Origin: Methylobacterium sp.
GTDB taxonomy: Bacteria > Pseudomonadota > Alphaproteobacteria > Rhizobiales > Beijerinckiaceae
DNA: 11,171 nucleotides
Reading direction: 5' to 3'
Assembly: GCA_021154065.1 (NCBI GenBank)
Contig: JAJKJG010000098.1
Coordinates: forward strand, 1 to 11,171
Below, piece by piece: positions 2,164 to 11,171 of the stretch. The notes beneath the pieces were generated by a model. The model made no database searches. It had not been told where the DNA came from and saw only the letters and a program-made list of their open reading frames with translations. Both the position numbers and the translations under genes were made by a program. Each line of letters opens with the position of its first letter. The first letter of the stretch is position 1.

Positions 2164-2335
2164 CCTTTGGCCAACGCACCGCGTCCCTCAGCCTGAGGTG
2201 CGAAGCCCGAAGGGCTGAGCCTCGAAGGACGCTGCACGCCGACGCCGCGCACGGCCGTGGGCGTGCTTCGAGGCTCCCCCGGGTCAAGCCCGGGGTCGCA
2301 CCTCAGCATGAGCATGAGGAGGTCCGCGTTCGGTA
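2164..2335. repeat. Palindromic repeat locus 1, between binding protein and permease genes
   Basis: Two copies of the main repeat face each other here. The first (2186-2230) starts with the hairpin CCTCAGCCTGAGG and carries the module AGCCCGAAGGGCTGA before GCCTCGAAGGACG. The second (about 2262-2320, opposite orientation) carries CCCCGGGCTTGACCCGGGG as its module, read on the minus strand. That sequence is itself a hairpin of a kind I remember as a common stand-alone palindrome in alphaproteobacteria. Between them GCACGCC (2234-2240) pairs with GGCGTGC (2260-2266), so the whole locus can fold as one long cruciform or RNA hairpin. The copies are joined by their GCCTCGAAG ends, the reverse of the arrangement at the other loci. 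A small GCATGA tandem doubling lies at about 2306-2317. No gene is present. Confidence 0.85.
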
Positions 2336-2337
2336 CG

Positions 2338-3471
2338 TCAATTCGCGACCTTGCGCTCGTAGGCTTCGAGGATGTCGTTGAAGTAGGGCGCGATCGGGAA
2401 CGGCTTGCCCTTCGACTGCAGATCGTCCGGCGAGATGTCGGCGAAGAGCTTCTTCCAGGCCGCCTGATCGAGCTTGCCTTCGAGGTTCTTGGCGTCGATG
2501 CCCGGATACCAGTTGAAGCGCTTGACGATGCCTTCCGCCTGCACCTCGGGGCTCGTCGCGAGCGCGACGAAATCCTGCGCGAGCTTCGAATTCGCCTTCG
2601 CCGGCACGGCGTAATACATCGGCTGGCCGGGCATGCCGGGGGCGACGAGCTTCAGCTTCATGTTCGGCGGCAGCTTGCCGTCGGTCATCCAGGTGTAGAA
2701 CATGTCGACCCAGACCGGCCCCATGGCGATCTCGCCGCGGTTGAGCATGTCGAGGGTGCCGGCGTTGCCGGGGGTGATGACGACCTTGGTGTTGAACTCC
2801 TTGAGGTCGGCAAGCGCCTTGTCCCAGGCGGCCTTCGTCGCCGCGTCGTAGGGGCCCTTCTCGAGCTTGTCGCCGCCGCCGGCGAAGGCCGCGACCCAGC
2901 CCGACACGAAGGCGACGCCGGACATGCCGCCCTTGATGCCGTTGTAGCCGAACTGCTTCGGGTGCTTCTTCACCCATTCCATGAGCTCGGGGTAGGAGTT
3001 CGGCACGTCCTTCACGAGGTCGGGATTGTAGGCGATCGCGGTCTGCGAGTGGAACATCGGCATGACGAACCCGGACACCTCCGCGCCGAGCGCGTTCTTC
3101 GCCGTGTCGCGGGTCGCGAGCGCGCCGGTCGGGATCTTGTCGGTGTATTTCTCCAGGAGGCCCTCGTTCACCATCGTGCCGGCGGCCTTCTGGTGGATGA
3201 CGACGACGTCGAAGTCGGATTTGGCGGCGCCGCCCTTCTTTTGCGCGTCGAGCTTCTCGTAGATCTTCTGCGAGCCGGCGTCGCCGGGCCCGGTGCCGAC
3301 GGCGGTCACCTTCACGCCGGGATGCGACTTCTCGAACATCGGGCCGAGATAGTCCTTGATGTAGTCGACCATGTTCTGGTCGCCGGCCGTCGCGACGTTG
3401 AGCGTCTGCTGCGCCGCGGCCGGCCACGCCAGCGCGGTCGCGGCAAGGGCCGCTGCGAGTGTCCTACGCAT
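2338..3471 (-). CDS. ABC transporter periplasmic substrate-binding protein
   Basis: This extracellular solute-binding protein of 377 aa captures the substrate in the periplasm and delivers it to the two permeases. A clear Sec signal peptide is present: MRRT, then an alanine/leucine core and WPAAA, with likely cleavage after about residue 20. The mature part begins QTLNVATAGDQNMVDYIKDY and has the general layout of the iron/polyamine/phosphonate binding-protein group (family 1 type, PotD/AfuA-like). The segments DFDVVVIHQKAAGTM and GPVWVDMFYTW look like lobe and ligand-pocket regions, but I cannot name the ligand. The ATG at 3471 lies 8 nt inside the end of the ATPase gene, with a strong GGGAGGA ribosome-binding site in that gene's last codons. 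The downstream gap carries a large palindrome that may protect this transcript end. Confidence 0.93.
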   Translation of the reverse strand: MRRTLAAALAATALAWPAAAQQTLNVATAGDQNMVDYIKDYLGPMFEKSHPGVKVTAVGTGPGDAGSQKIYEKLDAQKKGGAAKSDFDVVVIHQKAAGTMVNEGLLEKYTDKIPTGALATRDTAKNALGAEVSGFVMPMFHSQTAIAYNPDLVKDVPNSYPELMEWVKKHPKQFGYNGIKGGMSGVAFVSGWVAAFAGGGDKLEKGPYDAATKAAWDKALADLKEFNTKVVITPGNAGTLDMLNRGEIAMGPVWVDMFYTWMTDGKLPPNMKLKLVAPGMPGQPMYYAVPAKANSKLAQDFVALATSPEVQAEGIVKRFNWYPGIDAKNLEGKLDQAAWKKLFADISPDDLQSKGKPFPIAPYFNDILEAYERKVAN

Positions 3472-4549
3472 GAGTTCCTCCCTCGTCTTTGGCGCTTGGG
3501 AACAGGTGCAGCTCCGCCAGCGGCAAGCGCAGACCGACTGGGGTATCGAGGTCGAGGTAGCGCTCGTCCGTCACGGTGAAGTGGCGGTCTCCGATCGCGA
3601 CGCCATAGCGGTAATGTCCACCCGGATAGGCCCGGTGCGCAATCCGTCCCGGCAGGACGATGGCGCCGGGGAGGCGCGCGTCGGGGTTGTCGAGCTTCGC
3701 GACGTCGTCGCGGAAATAGGCGGTGACTGGACCGACGGGCGCCTCGCCGCTCCAGGGGATGGGCGCCGCACCGCCGACGCCGATCGCGACCCCCTCCGGG
3801 AGGCGGGCGACCTCGAGGTCGAGCGTGTTCTCCGCCCCCATGAAGCTCGCGACGAAGGGCGAGTTCGGCCGGTCGTAGACCTCCTTCGGCGGGCCGGCCT
3901 GGGCGATGCGGCCGGCATCCATCACCACGATCCGGTCGGCCATGGTCATCGCCTCCTCGCGGTCATGCGTGACGTGGATCGCGGTGAAGCCGAGGCGGTT
4001 CTGGAGCGTCTTGATCTCCTGGCGCAGCTGCACGCGCACCTTGGCGTCGAGGTTCGACAGCGGCTCGTCGAGAAGGAGAAGTTGCGGGTCGATGGCGAGC
4101 GCCCGCCCGAGCGCCACGCGCTGGCGCTGGCCGCCGGAGAGGTTCGTGACCTTGCGCTCCTCGAGGCCGGAGAGGTTGAGGAGCTTCAGCACCTCGCCGA
4201 CCCGCCGCCGCACCTCGGGCCGCGGCACGCCGCGCAGGCGCAAGCCGTAGCCGACATTGCCGAGCACCGTCATATGCGGCCACAGCGCGTAGGATTGGAA
4301 CACCATCGCGATGTTGCGCTTCTCGGGCGGAAGGTTCGCGACGTCGCGGCCCGAGAGCCGGATCGCCCCCGCCGACGATTTCTGGAAGCCCGCGATGGTC
4401 CGCAACAGCGTGGTCTTGCCGCAGCCCGACGAGCCGAGAATCGCCACGAACTCGCCCGGCGCGACGGCAAGGTCGATGCCATGCAGCACCGGCGTCGCGC
4501 CGTAGCCGACGTGGAGATTCTGGACTTCGATCGCAGGGGTTTCGGTCAT
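3464..4549 (-). CDS. ABC transporter ATP-binding protein (PotA-like, with C-terminal TOBE-type region)
   Basis: This is the first ATPase subunit of the importer, 361 aa, the usual length of PotA/UgpC-like ATPases. Walker A is GSSGCGKTT at 39-47, the Q-loop glutamine is about 85, the signature LSGGQRQR is at 137-144, Walker B is LLLLDEP at 157-163, the D-loop SNLD is at 165-168 and the H-switch histidine is about 195 in VTHD. Residues from about 240 to 350 are a beta-rich region consistent with a TOBE regulatory domain. The ATG at 4549 overlaps the TGA of the GIY-YIG gene (ATGA), and its TAG lies within the start of the binding-protein gene. It heads the transporter genes, while a second ATPase closes them. 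It could belong to a phosphonate, polyamine or ferric importer; the sequence does not decide. Confidence 0.95.
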   Translation of the reverse strand: MTETPAIEVQNLHVGYGATPVLHGIDLAVAPGEFVAILGSSGCGKTTLLRTIAGFQKSSAGAIRLSGRDVANLPPEKRNIAMVFQSYALWPHMTVLGNVGYGLRLRGVPRPEVRRRVGEVLKLLNLSGLEERKVTNLSGGQRQRVALGRALAIDPQLLLLDEPLSNLDAKVRVQLRQEIKTLQNRLGFTAIHVTHDREEAMTMADRIVVMDAGRIAQAGPPKEVYDRPNSPFVASFMGAENTLDLEVARLPEGVAIGVGGAAPIPWSGEAPVGPVTAYFRDDVAKLDNPDARLPGAIVLPGRIAHRAYPGGHYRYGVAIGDRHFTVTDERYLDLDTPVGLRLPLAELHLFPSAKDEGGTHA

Positions 4550-5040
4550 CCCGTCCCGCCCTGCCGGACTGCGTGCTTCGAGGCTCGCTGCGCTCGCACC
4601 TCAGCATGAGGAGAGGGGAGTTTGGGCCCAGCTCCCAAATCCTCATGCTGAGGTGCGAGGCCGTCAGGCCGAGCCTCGAAGCACGCACCCTGCGCGGGCG
4701 CATTCTGCGTGGCTCGTTCCGGATCCGTGGTTTTCGAGAGAACCCTGGTCCGTCCACCGGGCCGCTTGGCGAGCCAAGGCAAGCGGTCCCACTCGCCCGG
4801 AATCAGAGCTTCCTTCTTGGCCCGGCTCCAGCCCTTGATGCGCCGCTCGGCGGCCATGGCATCGGTCATCCGTTCGAAATGCTCGTGGAAAACGAGCTGC
4901 ACGGGCCGGCGGGTGCTCGTGTAGCCGCCGAGCGCCCCGGTCTGATGCTCGTAGAAGCGCTTGTCGAGATCGTCTCCGCGCGCCGAGCCGACGTAGTAGC
5001 TGTCGTCCGCGCACTGCAGGATATAGACGAACGCGCCCAT
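4546..5040 (-). CDS. GIY-YIG nuclease domain protein with repeat-encoded C-terminal tail
   Basis: This small protein (164 aa) has an N-terminal GIY-YIG domain of the UPF0213/YhbQ type, a family of putative single-domain endonucleases of uncertain cellular role. The first motif appears as FVYILQC (residues 4-10) and the second as YYVGSA (15-20). Arg28 in KRFYEHQTG and the conserved glutamate about 65 in AAERRIKGW fit the catalytic arginine and metal-binding glutamate. Family members are usually about 90-100 aa, so the domain is complete by about residue 90. Residues from about 118 to 160 are translated straight through the palindromic repeat at 4571-4688, giving low-complexity sequence such as GACFEARP. 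The stop then overlaps the ATPase start as ATGA. The start ATG at 5040 has GAGGG in front. The tail is probably not functional. Confidence 0.85.
   Translation of the reverse strand: MGAFVYILQCADDSYYVGSARGDDLDKRFYEHQTGALGGYTSTRRPVQLVFHEHFERMTDAMAAERRIKGWSRAKKEALIPGEWDRLPWLAKRPGGRTRVLSKTTDPERATQNAPAQGACFEARPDGLAPQHEDLGAGPKLPSPHAEVRAQRASKHAVRQGGTG
4571..4688. repeat. Palindromic repeat locus 2, inside the 3' end of the GIY-YIG gene
   Basis: This is a large, nearly symmetrical inverted pair of the main repeat. The left arm (4571-4611), read on the minus strand, is TCCTCATGCTGAGGTGCGA, module GCGCAGCGA, GCCTCGAAGCACGC. The right arm (4640-4688), read on the plus strand, has the same flanks around the module GGCCGTCAGGCCGA, itself a small hairpin. 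The centre contains TTTGGG (4621-4626) pairing with CCCAAA (4634-4639). In RNA the two arms would form one very long hairpin about 22 nt upstream of the ATPase start codon. Unlike the other main-family loci it is translated, as the last quarter of the GIY-YIG protein. Confidence 0.9.
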
Positions 5041-5064
5041 GTGGCCCTCGGCGATCCTTGAACG

Positions 5065-5286
5065 ATATCAACCCTCATCCAGAGGTGCGAGCCCTCGACA
5101 AGGCCGCTGCATCGGTATCCTGCGTGCTTCGAGGCTCGCTCCGCTCGCACCCCAGCATGAGGGTTTGGGTGTATGGCCCAAACTCAGACCTCCTCATGCT
5201 GGATGAGGGCTGTGGTGCATGGCCCGAACACAGACCTCCTCATGCTGAGGTGCGAGGCCGAAGGCCGAGCCTCGAAGCACGCACCG
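5065..5286. repeat. Palindromic repeat locus 3, composite array between Na/Pi transporter and GIY-YIG genes
   Basis: The gap of 271 nt between the two genes is almost entirely repeat. From left to right there is a degenerate copy at about 5072-5097 with CCTCATCCAGAGGTGCGA and no clear module. Next comes a minus-oriented arm at 5121-5163 with module GCGGAGCGA. A truncated arm lies at about 5191-5210, and a full plus-oriented arm at 5239-5284 has the module GGCCGAAGGCCGA. In the centre GTTTGGG (5163-5169) can pair with CCCAAAC (5177-5183). A 29-nt segment is repeated at a 46-nt period within the array. No gene or convincing promoter is seen here. Confidence 0.88.
5173..5247. repeat. 29-nt imperfect tandem duplication inside repeat locus 3
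   Basis: The segment 5173-5201 (starting ATGGCCCAAACTCAGACC and ending CATGCTG) recurs at 5219-5247 (starting ATGGCCCGAACACAGACC). They match at 27 of 29 positions, with a period of 46 nt. The first copy then breaks off into GATGAGGGC, whereas the second continues into a complete repeat arm. This looks like a local duplication or recombination scar. Confidence 0.8.
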
Positions 5287-5311
5287 ACGGTTGCGCATCC
5301 TCCCGCGTTGC

Positions 5312-6964
5312 CTACTCAGCCGCCACCCTCAATCGGCTCTCCCGCAGCTCGCCCGAGGCCTCGAGGATCGGGTAGGCGACCGAGGTGATGTGGGCGTTGA
5401 TGCGCTTGAGATCGCGCAGGATGTCGAGGTGCAGCGCGCTCGTTTCGATCGAGGCGATGGTGCCCTCGCGCAGGCGGCGCAGGTGGCTCTCGGTCGCGCC
5501 GCGCTCGGCCAATCGGATGTTGTCCTTCTCGAGCACGAGCTGGCGCGCCATGCGGATGTCGCGGGTGACGAACACGGTCATGGCGAGGCGCATCTGGTCG
5601 ACGACGCGGGCGTGCAGCGCCTTGATCTCGGCCCAGCCCTCCGGCGAGAAGTCGAGGTGCAGGCGGCTCTTCTTCGCCGCGAGCTCGAGCAGGCTCTTGT
5701 CGATGATATCGCCGATGTGCTCGAGGTTGGTCGTGAACAGGATGAGGTCGAAGGCGCGCCGGCTGTCCTCCTCGGACAGCGGGTTGCGGGTGAGCCGCGT
5801 CAGATAGAGCTTGATCTCCTCCTGCAGGCGGTCGACCGGATCGTCGAGGCCCTTGACCGCCTGGCGGCGCCTGTCGCCGTCCTCGCCGAAGGCGAGGATC
5901 GTCTCACGCAGCATGATCTCGACCATGTCGGCAAGCCGCATCACCTCGCGGGTCGCGCTGCCGAGCGCGATCGAGGGGCGGTCGAGGAGGGTGTCGTCGA
6001 GATGCTCGATCGTCGGCTCGCCGGGCGCCTTCGCGTCCGGGATCAGGCGCTCGAGCCAGCCGGCGGCGACGCCGGTCAGGGGCAGGAAAACCAGCGCCAG
6101 CGCGAGGTTGAAGAGGGTGTGGAAGTCGGCGATCTGGCGCGCCGGATCGCTTTCGAGGCGCGCCATGCCGTCGGCCGCGAGGCGCAGGACCAGGAGCGCC
6201 GCGAGCGCGCCCGCGAGCCGGAACAGGAAATTGCCGAACAGCACGCGCTTTGCCGCCGCGGGCGCGCGCAGCGACAGGCCGATCGGAATCAGCCCCGAGC
6301 CGATGTTGGCGCCGAGCACGAGCGCCATCCCGAGCGGGGCGGACAGCATCGCGGCGGAGGTCAGCGAGATCACGAGCAGCACCATCGCGACGCTCGAGTG
6401 GAACAGCCAGGTCAGGAGCGCCCCGACGATCACCGCCAGGATCGGGTCGTCGCCGAGACGCTGGAGCACGAGGGCGAGGACCTCGCTGCCGCGAAAGCCA
6501 TGGCTTGCGGCGACGACCATCCCGAGCGACAGGATCATCAGCGCCAGGCCGATGACGATGCGTCCGACCTGCTGCACGGTCGCGTTCTCGACCGCCATGA
6601 AGGCGATCACGCCGGCGATGAGCAGCACCGGCACGAGACCGGAGAGGTCGAAAGCGAGGGCCTGCACGACGAGGGTCGAGCCGACATCGGCGCCGAGCAT
6701 CACCGCGAGCGCGGCGGAGAGCGCGATGAGCCCGCGCTCGGCAAACGACACGACGATGAGCCCGGTCGCCGACGAGCTCTGCACCGCGCTCGCGACGCCG
6801 ATGCCGGCAAGGCAGGCACGGAGCGGGTTCGCGGTCGCCTGCGCGACGGCGCGGCGGAAGCGTTCGCCGAAGGCGCGCAGCACGCCGGTCCGCACCATCC
6901 GCGTCGCCCAGAGCAGGAGCGCGATGCCTCCGAGGAGGTTCAGGAGAACGGTGTGGCCGGCCAC
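5312..6964 (-). CDS. Na+/Pi-cotransporter family membrane protein with PhoU-like domain
   Basis: This is an inner-membrane protein of the Na/Pi cotransporter family (PF02690 type, YjbB/NptA-like), likely moving phosphate with sodium. In bacterial relatives it is often tied to phosphate efflux or homeostasis. It has two inverted half-repeats: QSSSAT begins about residue 62, counting from the GTG, and GADVGST about 91. The second half shows FHSS about 188-191 and GANIGSG at 218-224. Hydrophobic segments extend to about residue 305. A soluble helical PhoU-like region with LEHIGDIIDKSL follows to the end. I prefer GTG at 6964 because the product then begins MAGHTVLLNLLGG, as relatives do; a TTG at 7009 in the same frame is possible, and neither has a good ribosome-binding site. 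The gene lies directly after the iolB terminator, so it is probably a separate transcription unit. Confidence 0.92.
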   Translation of the reverse strand: MAGHTVLLNLLGGIALLLWATRMVRTGVLRAFGERFRRAVAQATANPLRACLAGIGVASAVQSSSATGLIVVSFAERGLIALSAALAVMLGADVGSTLVVQALAFDLSGLVPVLLIAGVIAFMAVENATVQQVGRIVIGLALMILSLGMVVAASHGFRGSEVLALVLQRLGDDPILAVIVGALLTWLFHSSVAMVLLVISLTSAAMLSAPLGMALVLGANIGSGLIPIGLSLRAPAAAKRVLFGNFLFRLAGALAALLVLRLAADGMARLESDPARQIADFHTLFNLALALVFLPLTGVAAGWLERLIPDAKAPGEPTIEHLDDTLLDRPSIALGSATREVMRLADMVEIMLRETILAFGEDGDRRRQAVKGLDDPVDRLQEEIKLYLTRLTRNPLSEEDSRRAFDLILFTTNLEHIGDIIDKSLLELAAKKSRLHLDFSPEGWAEIKALHARVVDQMRLAMTVFVTRDIRMARQLVLEKDNIRLAERGATESHLRRLREGTIASIETSALHLDILRDLKRINAHITSVAYPILEASGELRESRLRVAAE

Positions 6965-7045
6965 TGTCGCGGAATGCCTCGCGGGGTGCCTCTGAGGGCG
7001 TTGTTCCAAAGGGCACTGTGCATCCCCGGGCCGGGAGTCACAACG

Positions 7046-7073
7046 AAAAACGCCTGCGATTCTGCGGCTTTTT
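7046..7073 (-). terminator. Intrinsic terminator after iolB
   Basis: Read on the minus strand, AAAAA is followed by the hairpin GCCGC-AGAATC-GC(A)GGC and then G and TTTTT. This is a short GC stem with a single bulged base and a run of five T, starting 10 nt after the iolB stop. The A-run on the other side gives a matching T-run on the plus strand, so it could act in both directions. It marks the end of the inositol operon. Confidence 0.75.
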
Positions 7074-7082
7074 GTGGGTTTT

Positions 7083-7877
7083 CTACCCCTTTACCATCCA
7101 CTCGTGCGCCGGGTCGTTGCGGAAACGCCAGATCCGGCGCGGGCCGGCCATGACGTTCAGGTAGTAGAGCCGGTAGCCGTGCGGCGCGCCGACCGGGTGG
7201 TAGCCCCGCGGCACGAGCACGACGTCGCGGTCCTCGACCGCCATCGTCTCGTCGAGCGAGCGGTCGTCGGTGTAGACGCGCTGGACGGCGTAGCCCTGGG
7301 CCGGGTCGAGGCGGTGGTAATAGGTCTCCTCGAGGAGCGACTCGTCCGGCAGCGCGTCGCGGTCATGCTTGTGCGGCGGATAGCTCGACCAGTGGCCCGG
7401 CGGCGTGATGACCTCGACGACGAGGAGGCTGTGCGCCGGCTCGGTCTCGGGCAGGATGTTCTGGACGTGGCGGGTGTTCGTGCCGGAGCCGCGCGTGAGA
7501 CTCTCGATCGTGTCCGGCCCGATGAGCCGCGCCGCGTGGGCGCCGCCGCCCGGGCCCGAGCAGACGGCAAGCTCAAGCGCGGTCGTTGCCGCGGCGCGCC
7601 AGGTCGAGCCCGCCGGCACGTAGACCGAGGACGGCTTGCCCTCGAAGGGCGACATCCGGCCGCCGATCTCCCCGAAGCTCTTGCCGTCGACCTCGACCCG
7701 CGCCTTGCCGGCGACGAGGACGAGGCAAGCCTCGCGCTCGCCGGTCGCGGCGGATGCCGCTTCCCCGGCCGCGAGCCTGTGGACCTCGAATCCGACATAG
7801 GTCCAGCCGGCGCTCTTGGGCGTCACCCGGTGGATGCGGCCGCGTTCGGCGGCGGGCTTGAGGAGGAGGTTGGACAT
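7083..7877 (-). CDS. iolB: 5-deoxy-glucuronate isomerase (IolB)
   Basis: IolB converts 5-deoxy-D-glucuronate to 2-deoxy-5-keto-D-gluconate in the cytoplasmic myo-inositol degradation pathway, the step after the IolD hydrolase. The 264-aa product has the expected length and the two-cupin layout of the KduI/IolB family. The metal site is visible in SSYPPHKHD (residues 164-172, His169 and His171), LEETYYHR (182-189) and VPRGYHPVGAPHGYRLYYLN (222-241), with His227 as a further probable ligand. The N-terminal cupin covers roughly residues 20-110. The ATG at 7877 has AGGAG at a 6-nt spacing, a good ribosome-binding site. It is the last gene of iolD-iolE-iolB and is followed at once by an intrinsic terminator. 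A repeat-filled gap of 188 nt separates it from iolE. Confidence 0.96.
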   Translation of the reverse strand: MSNLLLKPAAERGRIHRVTPKSAGWTYVGFEVHRLAAGEAASAATGEREACLVLVAGKARVEVDGKSFGEIGGRMSPFEGKPSSVYVPAGSTWRAAATTALELAVCSGPGGGAHAARLIGPDTIESLTRGSGTNTRHVQNILPETEPAHSLLVVEVITPPGHWSSYPPHKHDRDALPDESLLEETYYHRLDPAQGYAVQRVYTDDRSLDETMAVEDRDVVLVPRGYHPVGAPHGYRLYYLNVMAGPRRIWRFRNDPAHEWMVKG

Positions 7878-7927
7878 CGTCGACTCCTACTCGCCGAAGG
7901 CTAGCGGATGAGGGGCTGGCTCGACAG

Positions 7928-8062
7928 GGTGCGTCCTTCGAGGCTCGCTTGCGCTCGCACCTCAGGATGAGGATATGGGAGGTTGGCCCAAACGGCTGCC
8001 GGGCCAAACACAAATCTCCTCATGCTGAGGTGCGAGCGTAGCGAGCCTCGAAGCACGCACGC
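7928..8062. repeat. Palindromic repeat locus 4, between iolE and iolB
   Basis: This is an inverted pair of the main repeat. The left arm (7928-7973), read on the minus strand, is TCCTCATCCTGAGGTGCGA, module GCGCAAGCGA, then GCCTCGAAGGACGCACC. The right arm (8018-8060), plus strand, has TCCTCATGCTGAGGTGCGA, module GCGTAGCGA, GCCTCGAAGCACGCAC. The centre holds TTGGCCC (7983-7989) pairing with GGGCCAA (8001-8007). The remaining nucleotides up to the iolB start contain only its ribosome-binding site. Confidence 0.9.
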
Positions 8063-8950: not shown

Positions 8951-8975
8951 CTTCTGCCTCCCCCTTGCGGGGAGG
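8951..8975 (-). promoter_or_regulatory. Ribosome-binding site of iolE embedded in a repeat hairpin
   Basis: On the minus strand the sequence is CCTCCCCGCAAGGGGGAGG followed by CAGAAG and the GTG start of iolE. CCTCCCC pairs with GGGGAGG across a GCAAG loop (7-bp stem, 8957-8975). The 3' arm is the only good Shine-Dalgarno sequence for iolE, so folding of the hairpin would hide it. That the site is a repeat end is seen directly; any regulatory effect is inferred. Confidence 0.7.
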
Positions 8976-9130
8976 CCGGACTCGGCCGAAGGCCGAGCCG
9001 GGTGGGGGTCGCGGGCGTAGAGCGCGGGATGATTTGATCAGGCGCCGCACCGGCGAGGGCGGGCACACCCTTGGCGGAGCGTTCTAGCCCCGCGACCCCC
9101 ACCCCTACCCCTCCCCGCAAGGGGGAGGGG
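8957..9130. repeat. Inverted repeat pair of a second family, between iolD and iolE
   Basis: The arms are 8957-9014 and 9087-9130 in opposite orientation. Both contain the hairpin CCTCCCCCTTGCGGGGAGG (or its complement) and GGGTGGGGGTCGCGGG. The left arm has the extra hairpin CTCGGCCGAAGGCCGAG (8981-8997) where the right arm has only a short AGGGGT-like stretch. Between the arms, CGCCG (9043-9047) pairs with CGGCG (9051-9055). This family differs from the main one in its flanks. No gene lies between iolD and iolE. Confidence 0.85.
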
Positions 9131-10996: not shown

Positions 10997-11171
10997 GGCG
11001 CGCCCTACCTCGCCCCGCTTGCGGGGCGAGGCCGACTGGCGCCTGGGGCGCGAGCGGGTGAGGGGTCGTCGGGATTGAGGCTCAGCGGTCGATGCCCACT
11101 CAGGGCGAGGCCCTCTCCCGGCGCGCGGCGAGAGGCGTCATCGCCATGACCAGCCGGAGTTTGCTCGTCCC
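10997..11171. other. Upstream region of iolD, no clear gene
   Basis: These 175 nt contain the 11009-11030 hairpin, a GAGGGG-type stretch at about 11051-11066 and a CCTCTC/GAGAGG inverted repeat at about 11112-11134, all resembling repeat sequence. I see no convincing promoter. On the minus strand one frame is open from the right edge to a TGA at 11100-11102 and could be the last codons of an upstream gene, but its composition is repeat-like and too short to judge. Confidence 0.4.
11003..11030 (-). promoter_or_regulatory. Hairpin abutting the iolD ribosome-binding site
   Basis: Positions 11009-11030 form a perfect inverted repeat, CTCGCCCCGC against GCGGGGCGAG, separated by two bases (ten possible pairs). 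On the minus strand its 3' arm ends in GAG and is followed directly by GTAGGG and the iolD start. A GAGG at 11008-11011 falls partly within the stem, while AGGG at 11003-11006 is just outside it. The CCCCGCAAG core resembles the hairpin in front of iolE. Confidence 0.65.

Follow-up and report, generated by a model that had tools for sequence, protein, structure and literature searches.

The question raised by the 11,171 nucleotides of the Methylobacterium sp. contig JAJKJG010000098.1 (this whole stretch is hereafter called the window) is how a family of short palindromic repeats can retain its flanks while its centres differ from copy to copy, and which enzyme might be responsible. A preliminary description of the sequence had proposed swapping of central modules, or insertion of one small palindrome into another, by elements depending on help in trans. 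The analysis reported here points to an intergenic family resembling repetitive extragenic palindromes (REPs) and bacterial interspersed mosaic elements (BIMEs), whose partner would be a small GIY-YIG nuclease. Cutting by this enzyme and subsequent repair would copy and shuffle the hairpin arms of the palindromes, a reading to which we assign a probability of roughly 0.6.

All eight copies previously listed for four loci are present with the given centres, within positions 2164..8062. They are half-units arranged as four inverted pairs, of which pair 1 is oriented tail-to-tail and pairs 2, 3 and 4 head-to-head. The pattern TGAGGTGCGA-N5..35-CCTCGAAG is matched exactly by seven of the eight half-units and by nothing in 200 dinucleotide shuffles; in the one inexact copy, half-unit 5, TGGGGTG replaces TGAGGTG. 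The conserved frame flanks of the family read CCTCATNCTGAGGTG and CCTCGAAGNA, the layout of the unit being CCTCATGCTGAGGTG-arm-CCTCGAAG. Between TGAGGTG and CCTCGAAG all eight half-units obey a single rule, C-GA-stem-loop-stem-GA-G, so that one hairpin arm, in varying forms, accounts for the differing centres. Stems comprise 2 to 7 pairs, and the loops are GAA (twice) as well as GCA, GGA, GTA, GCAA, GTCA and CTTGA (once each), which makes seven of the eight GNA or GNNA loops. DNA-strand folds of the four pairs are more stable than those of shuffled sequences by 8.5 to 12.8 standard deviations. Pair 1 is predicted to adopt a four-way junction, and the three shorter-armed pairs mainly long hairpins.

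Strict-pattern matches were obtained in 2 of the 16 genomes tried first, in 23 of 298 from the family of genome G003 and in 49 of 99 from the genus of G194, the richest carriers being G380 (98 strict copies) and G319 (40); a reversed-pattern control gave zero among the genomes listed. Since 80 named iolE loci compared with the window locus contain no palindrome copy by the patterns used, alleles were compared in five large genomes (G380, G319, G238, G334 and G376), which hold 179 full elements by pattern. The usual element spans about 130 bp and consists of an outer stem, arm A, an inner stem with a variable apical loop, and arm B. Arms belong to a 13-nt GA type, a 23-nt type, 11-nt types, or long arms with two or three serial hairpins. 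The proposed nesting of small palindromes is borne out by some arms of 37-54 nt which, by reading, hold two or three small hairpins. Bradyrhizobium hipponense (G014; loci such as L082, L086 and L092) shares the frame and has longer centres (about 30 nt), and at locus L231 of G380 the element sits within a mosaic of other repeats, e.g. TTTTCTGCGACGAACCGGCATCCACTTCGTCGGAAAA and AGAGCCTGTTTGA.

In a census of 327 arms from the five genomes (arms of up to 45 nt; longer ones were left out) the best hairpin contains a triloop in 267 cases. As 211 of these triloops are GNA and only 6 TNC, the arms have a preferred strand. Closing pairs are C-G in 231 arms, T-A in 77, G-C in 17 and A-T in 2 (C-G or T-A in 308 of 327). 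Of the 153 arms of 13 nt, 145 have Watson-Crick bases in both inner pairs and 139 retain the tandem G.A. Arm sequences vary freely, yet the arms pair and mostly carry a GNA or GNNA loop; on short G-C stems such loops are described as making DNA mini-hairpins extraordinarily stable (PMC4686876). A small set of fixed modules is not supported, as the stems take many sequences, limited to pairing and mostly to closing a GNA loop. It might be supposed that the elements act as RNA, i.e. as terminator or stability hairpins maintained by compensatory mutation, in line with their strong folding and conserved pairing. The 306 inner pairs of the 13-nt arms, however, include a single T.G wobble, and this near absence would argue for selection on DNA, or for replacement of whole arms, rather than for RNA. 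Given, in addition, that half-units of opposite polarity lie inside one element and that an Rfam search of the window produced no match, we consider a function as RNA very unlikely.

Aligned stretches of the five genomes are mostly 85 to 93% identical. Of 42 ortholog rows, 34 remained after a span limit and the removal of repeats, and 15 have a full element by pattern on both sides; in all of these pairs but el1 and el22, hence in 13 of the 15, the two flank distances lie within 31 nt of each other. Over the 15 pairs, which count one site three times, 39 of 1020 frame positions differ, compared to 27 of 30 arms, confirming that sequence change is concentrated in the centre; 15 of the 30 arms change length, and 86 of 210 apical loop positions differ. 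Where a 13-nt arm faces a 13-nt arm, inner pairs are changed on both sides in five cases, on one side in none and on neither in 13, and the replacement arms look, by eye, hairpin-like again. Elements thus keep their orthologous sites while single arms become other hairpins. At the site represented by L137 (G319), L164 (G334) and L225 (G380), G334 and G380 share the same arm A and G319 has another, whereas a nearly identical arm B is shared by G319 and G380, with another in G334. The two arms, about 55 nt apart, therefore have different histories, and the notion of module swapping holds insofar as one arm at an orthologous site is exchanged independently of the other. At least three pairs (el3, el35 and el71) carry the 13-nt arm on opposite sides, which may mean that the entire interior was inverted or replaced, or that the insertions were independent. 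In the 75 G380 elements that have a 13-nt arm, arm class shows no relation to outer flank (p 0.18), apical loop (p 0.74), frame (p 0.32) or partner arm (p 0.71); a smooth tree of centres congruent with the flanks is hence not what this genome presents. These data support module exchange. Arm change could also be nuclease-independent, arising during replication through template switching or hairpin-templated repair, with selection of stable hairpins. Paired double changes without single-sided ones, and occasional inverted loops with TTC in place of GAA, would agree with such a process, but the replacement of whole arms with altered length is easier given a donor, and we regard the nuclease-independent route as distinctly improbable.

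The preliminary description had stated that there is no mobilising gene close by. However, an open reading frame (ORF) bracketed by the palindromes lies between pairs 2 and 3; its product matches Pfam PF01541 with 55.5 bits (curated cut-off 22.6) and is a predicted DNA-cutting GIY-YIG nuclease. Residues Y6, Y16, G18, R28, H32 and E65, which we take to be of catalytic type, are invariant across 33 sequences. The conserved part comprises only about 97 residues. The 3' end of the ORF reads into half-units 4 and 3, and several homologous proteins end in an apparently translated palindrome (e.g. PHPEV or SFEAR). The protein is 96% identical to one named from a Microvirga metagenome-assembled genome (MAG). 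Its predicted structure model reaches a mean confidence (pLDDT) of 84.5, and in a fold search only UPF0213 proteins pass E 0.001, followed by Slx1, a branched-DNA nuclease; fold neighbours by Z include At-HIGLE, I-TevI and UvrC. The best Foldseek matches, the UPF0213 proteins BH0048 and EF2693, share the domain by sequence as well (E 2e-10 and 9e-8), and we know of no palindrome link for either. Phage records with GIY-YIG relatives number 23, each below 60% identity, and a comparison with viral contigs gave no exact 18-mer.

Is the position of this gene between palindromes a peculiarity of the window? In small GIY-YIG loci from 40 genomes (L291 was left out of the scoring), left-right flank repeats exceed the 98.5th percentile of random positions in 19 of 26 scorable cases; the same test on UvrC yielded 0 of 2, and L296, a PF01541 frame of 641 residues, has strong flank repeats too. 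A further set combined these small GIY-YIG loci with the 30 loci most like the window protein and with L082, L115 and the window itself. After removal of four duplicates (60 to 56 unique loci), 38 are flanked by the window palindrome, 16 by palindromes of the CGTC type and 2 by neither. According to the survey by Di Nocera (2013), CGTC palindromes are mainly alphaproteobacterial and their inverted dimers often combine two different units (PMC3733652). For the part of the protein tree that contains the window protein, strict motifs within 350 nt occur on both flanks of 30 of 38 loci, on one flank of 7 and on none of a single locus, which lies near a contig end; these 38 rows were picked by a loose flank label and are identical to the rows on one side of the tree branch. 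Without the loci discovered through the repeat (window, L082 and L115) the counts are 27, 7 and 1 of 35. Random positions have a palindrome on any side in 1.2% and on both sides in 0 of 5000 cases, and element-centred stretches of G319 and G380 in 7.8% and 0.02%, respectively. CGTC-type palindromes stand at 16 of 18 loci on the other side of the tree, and flank type (38 versus 16 rows) changes once along it, with a value as low for group A in 0 of 500 shuffles. G334, G343 and G003, which hold many window-type copies, also possess genes of the other side (L275, L272 and L270), and these are CGTC-flanked. Of seven genes of the window's clade (clade A), six have a strict copy no more than 500 nt away, and the seventh (G350) is bracketed by looser copies. 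The corresponding control, from which four GIY-YIG fragments were left out, gave 0 of 18 other small GIY-YIG genes (mostly without clade assignment), 0 of 11 UvrC genes and 0 of 30 GFA genes, the last compared by gene position only. Among named replicons, M. bullatum plasmid 1 and M. aquaticum pMaq22A_1p carry the same brackets. Six additional alphaproteobacterial genomes gave two small GIY-YIG loci with CGTC-type motifs on both sides, one with them on a single side and three without. The small UPF0213-type GIY-YIG gene is associated with cognate palindrome copies on its flanks.

Bracketed gaps within 1.5 kb (five genomes and the window; at least two motif hits on at least one side) number nine, of which three contain the nuclease; in the six others one side always has a single motif hit, and the five genomes contain no bracketed gap with at least two hits on both sides. 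At one orthologous locus G376 (L268) has an element, the nuclease gene and a half-element, and G238 (L150) an element without the gene, a difference that probably represents gain or loss of a nuclease unit. Small GIY-YIG genes with other surroundings are those of Chelatococcus albus (L001, 2845-3229; also L281), located about 7 kb from iolE and flanked on either side by another type of palindromic repeat (CCCCGGACAGCCGC..GCGGCTTCCGGGG), and of two plasmids, of Sphingomonas parapaucimobilis (L342: nrdR - GIY-YIG - RNA methyltransferase) and S. paeninsulae (L343: rnc - GIY-YIG - era).

A mechanism can be envisaged in which two inverse half-units, single-stranded or extruded as a cruciform, would form two long stems and two short side arms. 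The nuclease would cut this branched or hairpin DNA near the base of an arm, and repair from another copy would swap arms and spread palindromes; in a homing-like manner, repair could also bring the nuclease gene into a palindrome site. Both the cutting of branched DNA and the copying of palindromes by the nuclease system are thus deductions. Whether, more generally, each small GIY-YIG clade has its own alphaproteobacterial palindrome family, by which its genes are bracketed and on which it acts (CCTCAT/CTCGAAG or CGTCAT type), cutting hairpins or junctions which repair then spreads and shuffles, seems to us evenly balanced.

Several observations weigh against a nuclease partner. In the family sample, 13 of the 23 strict-copy genomes have no close nuclease match, although palindrome copies may, as we assume, outlive the gene. 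Four GIY-YIG fragments occur in carriers, with the motif on both flanks of one (G334) and not of three; two Sphingomonas small GIY-YIG genes are plainly operonic and unbracketed; and filled/empty alignments, in which the intergenic flanks have diverged, reveal no target duplication. The nuclease might be a passenger homing into palindromes: inserted at host or older palindromes, it would neither move nor reshape them, and ordinary recombination would swap the arms. GIY-YIG homing nucleases are a known class. The structural neighbourhood of I-TevI, the carriers without a nuclease match and the filled G376 versus empty G238 locus are compatible with this. Against it stands that two nuclease clades each retain their own palindrome family, which suggests co-evolution rather than chance sites, and we judge pure homing rather unlikely. 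Mobilisation as in gammaproteobacteria by a REP-associated tyrosine transposase (RAYT), a kind of helper to which the preliminary description had pointed, would fit the inverted-dimer layout. As the Y1_Tnp domain is present in only 3 of 25 carriers, is absent from the two richest and is never found beside copies, this explanation is hardly tenable; RAYT was rejected as a general helper after the three Y1_Tnp loci proved to contain no palindrome copy within 1.5 kb on each side. The preliminary interpretation as a whole is partly supported.

REP/BIME systems with a RAYT are characterised by short palindromes, inverted dimers, a gene between two copies and apparent gene-repeat co-evolution (PMC2817692). 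The window family resembles them in its inverted dimers, its many copies, the gene flanked by two copies and the apparent co-evolution, and differs in that the enzyme is a GIY-YIG nuclease instead of a tyrosine transposase and the side arms are exchangeable. Of the features of GTAG REPs it has the inverted dimers (four pairs), but neither the GTAG tag nor a flanking RAYT. For CGTC REPs the 2013 survey gives the tag variants CGTC, TGTC or CCTC and a stem of 8-9 bp starting with complementary AT, with a CCA tail, and reports no dedicated transposase (PMC3733652). The CCTC variant, within CCTCAT, is present at the start of most window half-units; in contrast to CGTC REPs these are branched with side arms, and lack the AT-starting 8-9 bp stem and the CCA tail. 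By these features the family is neither a GTAG REP nor a standard CGTC REP. Miniature inverted-repeat transposable elements (MITEs) are short, non-coding and dispersed, with inverted ends, as is the window family; no transposase with matching ends was found for it, and alignments across the diverged intergenic flanks showed no target duplication. With GIY-YIG homing endonucleases such as I-TevI the system shares the domain and perhaps also gene insertion into a repeated target; it differs by the absence of an intron and by the shortness of the conserved part. A literature search found nothing linking GIY-YIG genes to palindromic repeats, which, being restricted to open-access coverage, is a weak negative, and a term search of the CGTC survey gave no mention of GIY (PMC3733652).

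Positions of the palindromic half-units and of the nuclease gene in the window
Feature	Position	Strand	Details
Half-unit 1	2185..2233	+	arm 2201-2219, AGCCC-GAA-GGGCT within CGA..GAG
Half-unit 2	2260..2318	-	arm 2274-2298, CCCCGGG-CTTGA-CCCGGGG; tail-to-tail with half-unit 1, four-way junction fold (predicted)
GIY-YIG nuclease ORF (predicted)	4546..5040	-	164 aa, with the domain at residues 4-76 (about 5031-4813); flanked by pairs 2 and 3
Half-unit 3	4570..4614	-	arm 4584-4596, GC-GCA-GC
Half-unit 4	4638..4687	+	arm 4656-4673, GGCC-GTCA-GGCC
Degenerate half-copy	5070..5094	+	upstream of nuclease start; repeat family D4
Half-unit 5	5121..5164	-	arm 5135-5147, GC-GGA-GC
Degenerate half-copy	5189..5210	+	CCTCATGCTG then ATGAGG; repeat family D1 (5175-5210)
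Half-unit 6	5235..5283	+	arm 5253-5269, GGCC-GAA-GGCC
Half-unit 7	7930..7974	-	arm 7944-7957, GC-GCAA-GC
Half-unit 8	8015..8059	+	arm 8033-8045, GC-GTA-GC

The remaining genes of the window include ABC transporter genes, a Na/Pi cotransporter-PhoU gene (5312-7009) and iolB, iolE and iolD of inositol breakdown; its IolE is 85% identical to that of Chelatococcus albus and 81% to that of a Microvirga MAG. A second palindromic repeat type, CTCCCCCTTGCGGGGAGG ... CTCCCCGCAAGGGGGAG, is seen at about 8957-9125 (region 8955-9130) and, as CTCGCCCCGCTTGCGGGGCGAG, near 11009-11031 (region 11005-11075).

Of the two REP super-families that it distinguishes, the 2013 survey assigns a partner enzyme to the GTAG class only, leaves open the mobiliser of the CGTC class, which dominates in alphaproteobacteria, and sees "no obvious explanation" for the preference for mixed dimers (PMC3733652). 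A nuclease gene bracketed by cognate palindromes represents a directly testable candidate partner for CGTC-type repeats, and arm exchange would provide an assayable read-out of nuclease action. The arms themselves constitute a natural collection of GNA mini-hairpins, structures otherwise familiar mainly from DNA chemistry. If the proposed reading is true, these alphaproteobacteria would harbour a REP system that uses an additional, unrelated enzyme, which would supply the partner that CGTC REPs reportedly lack.
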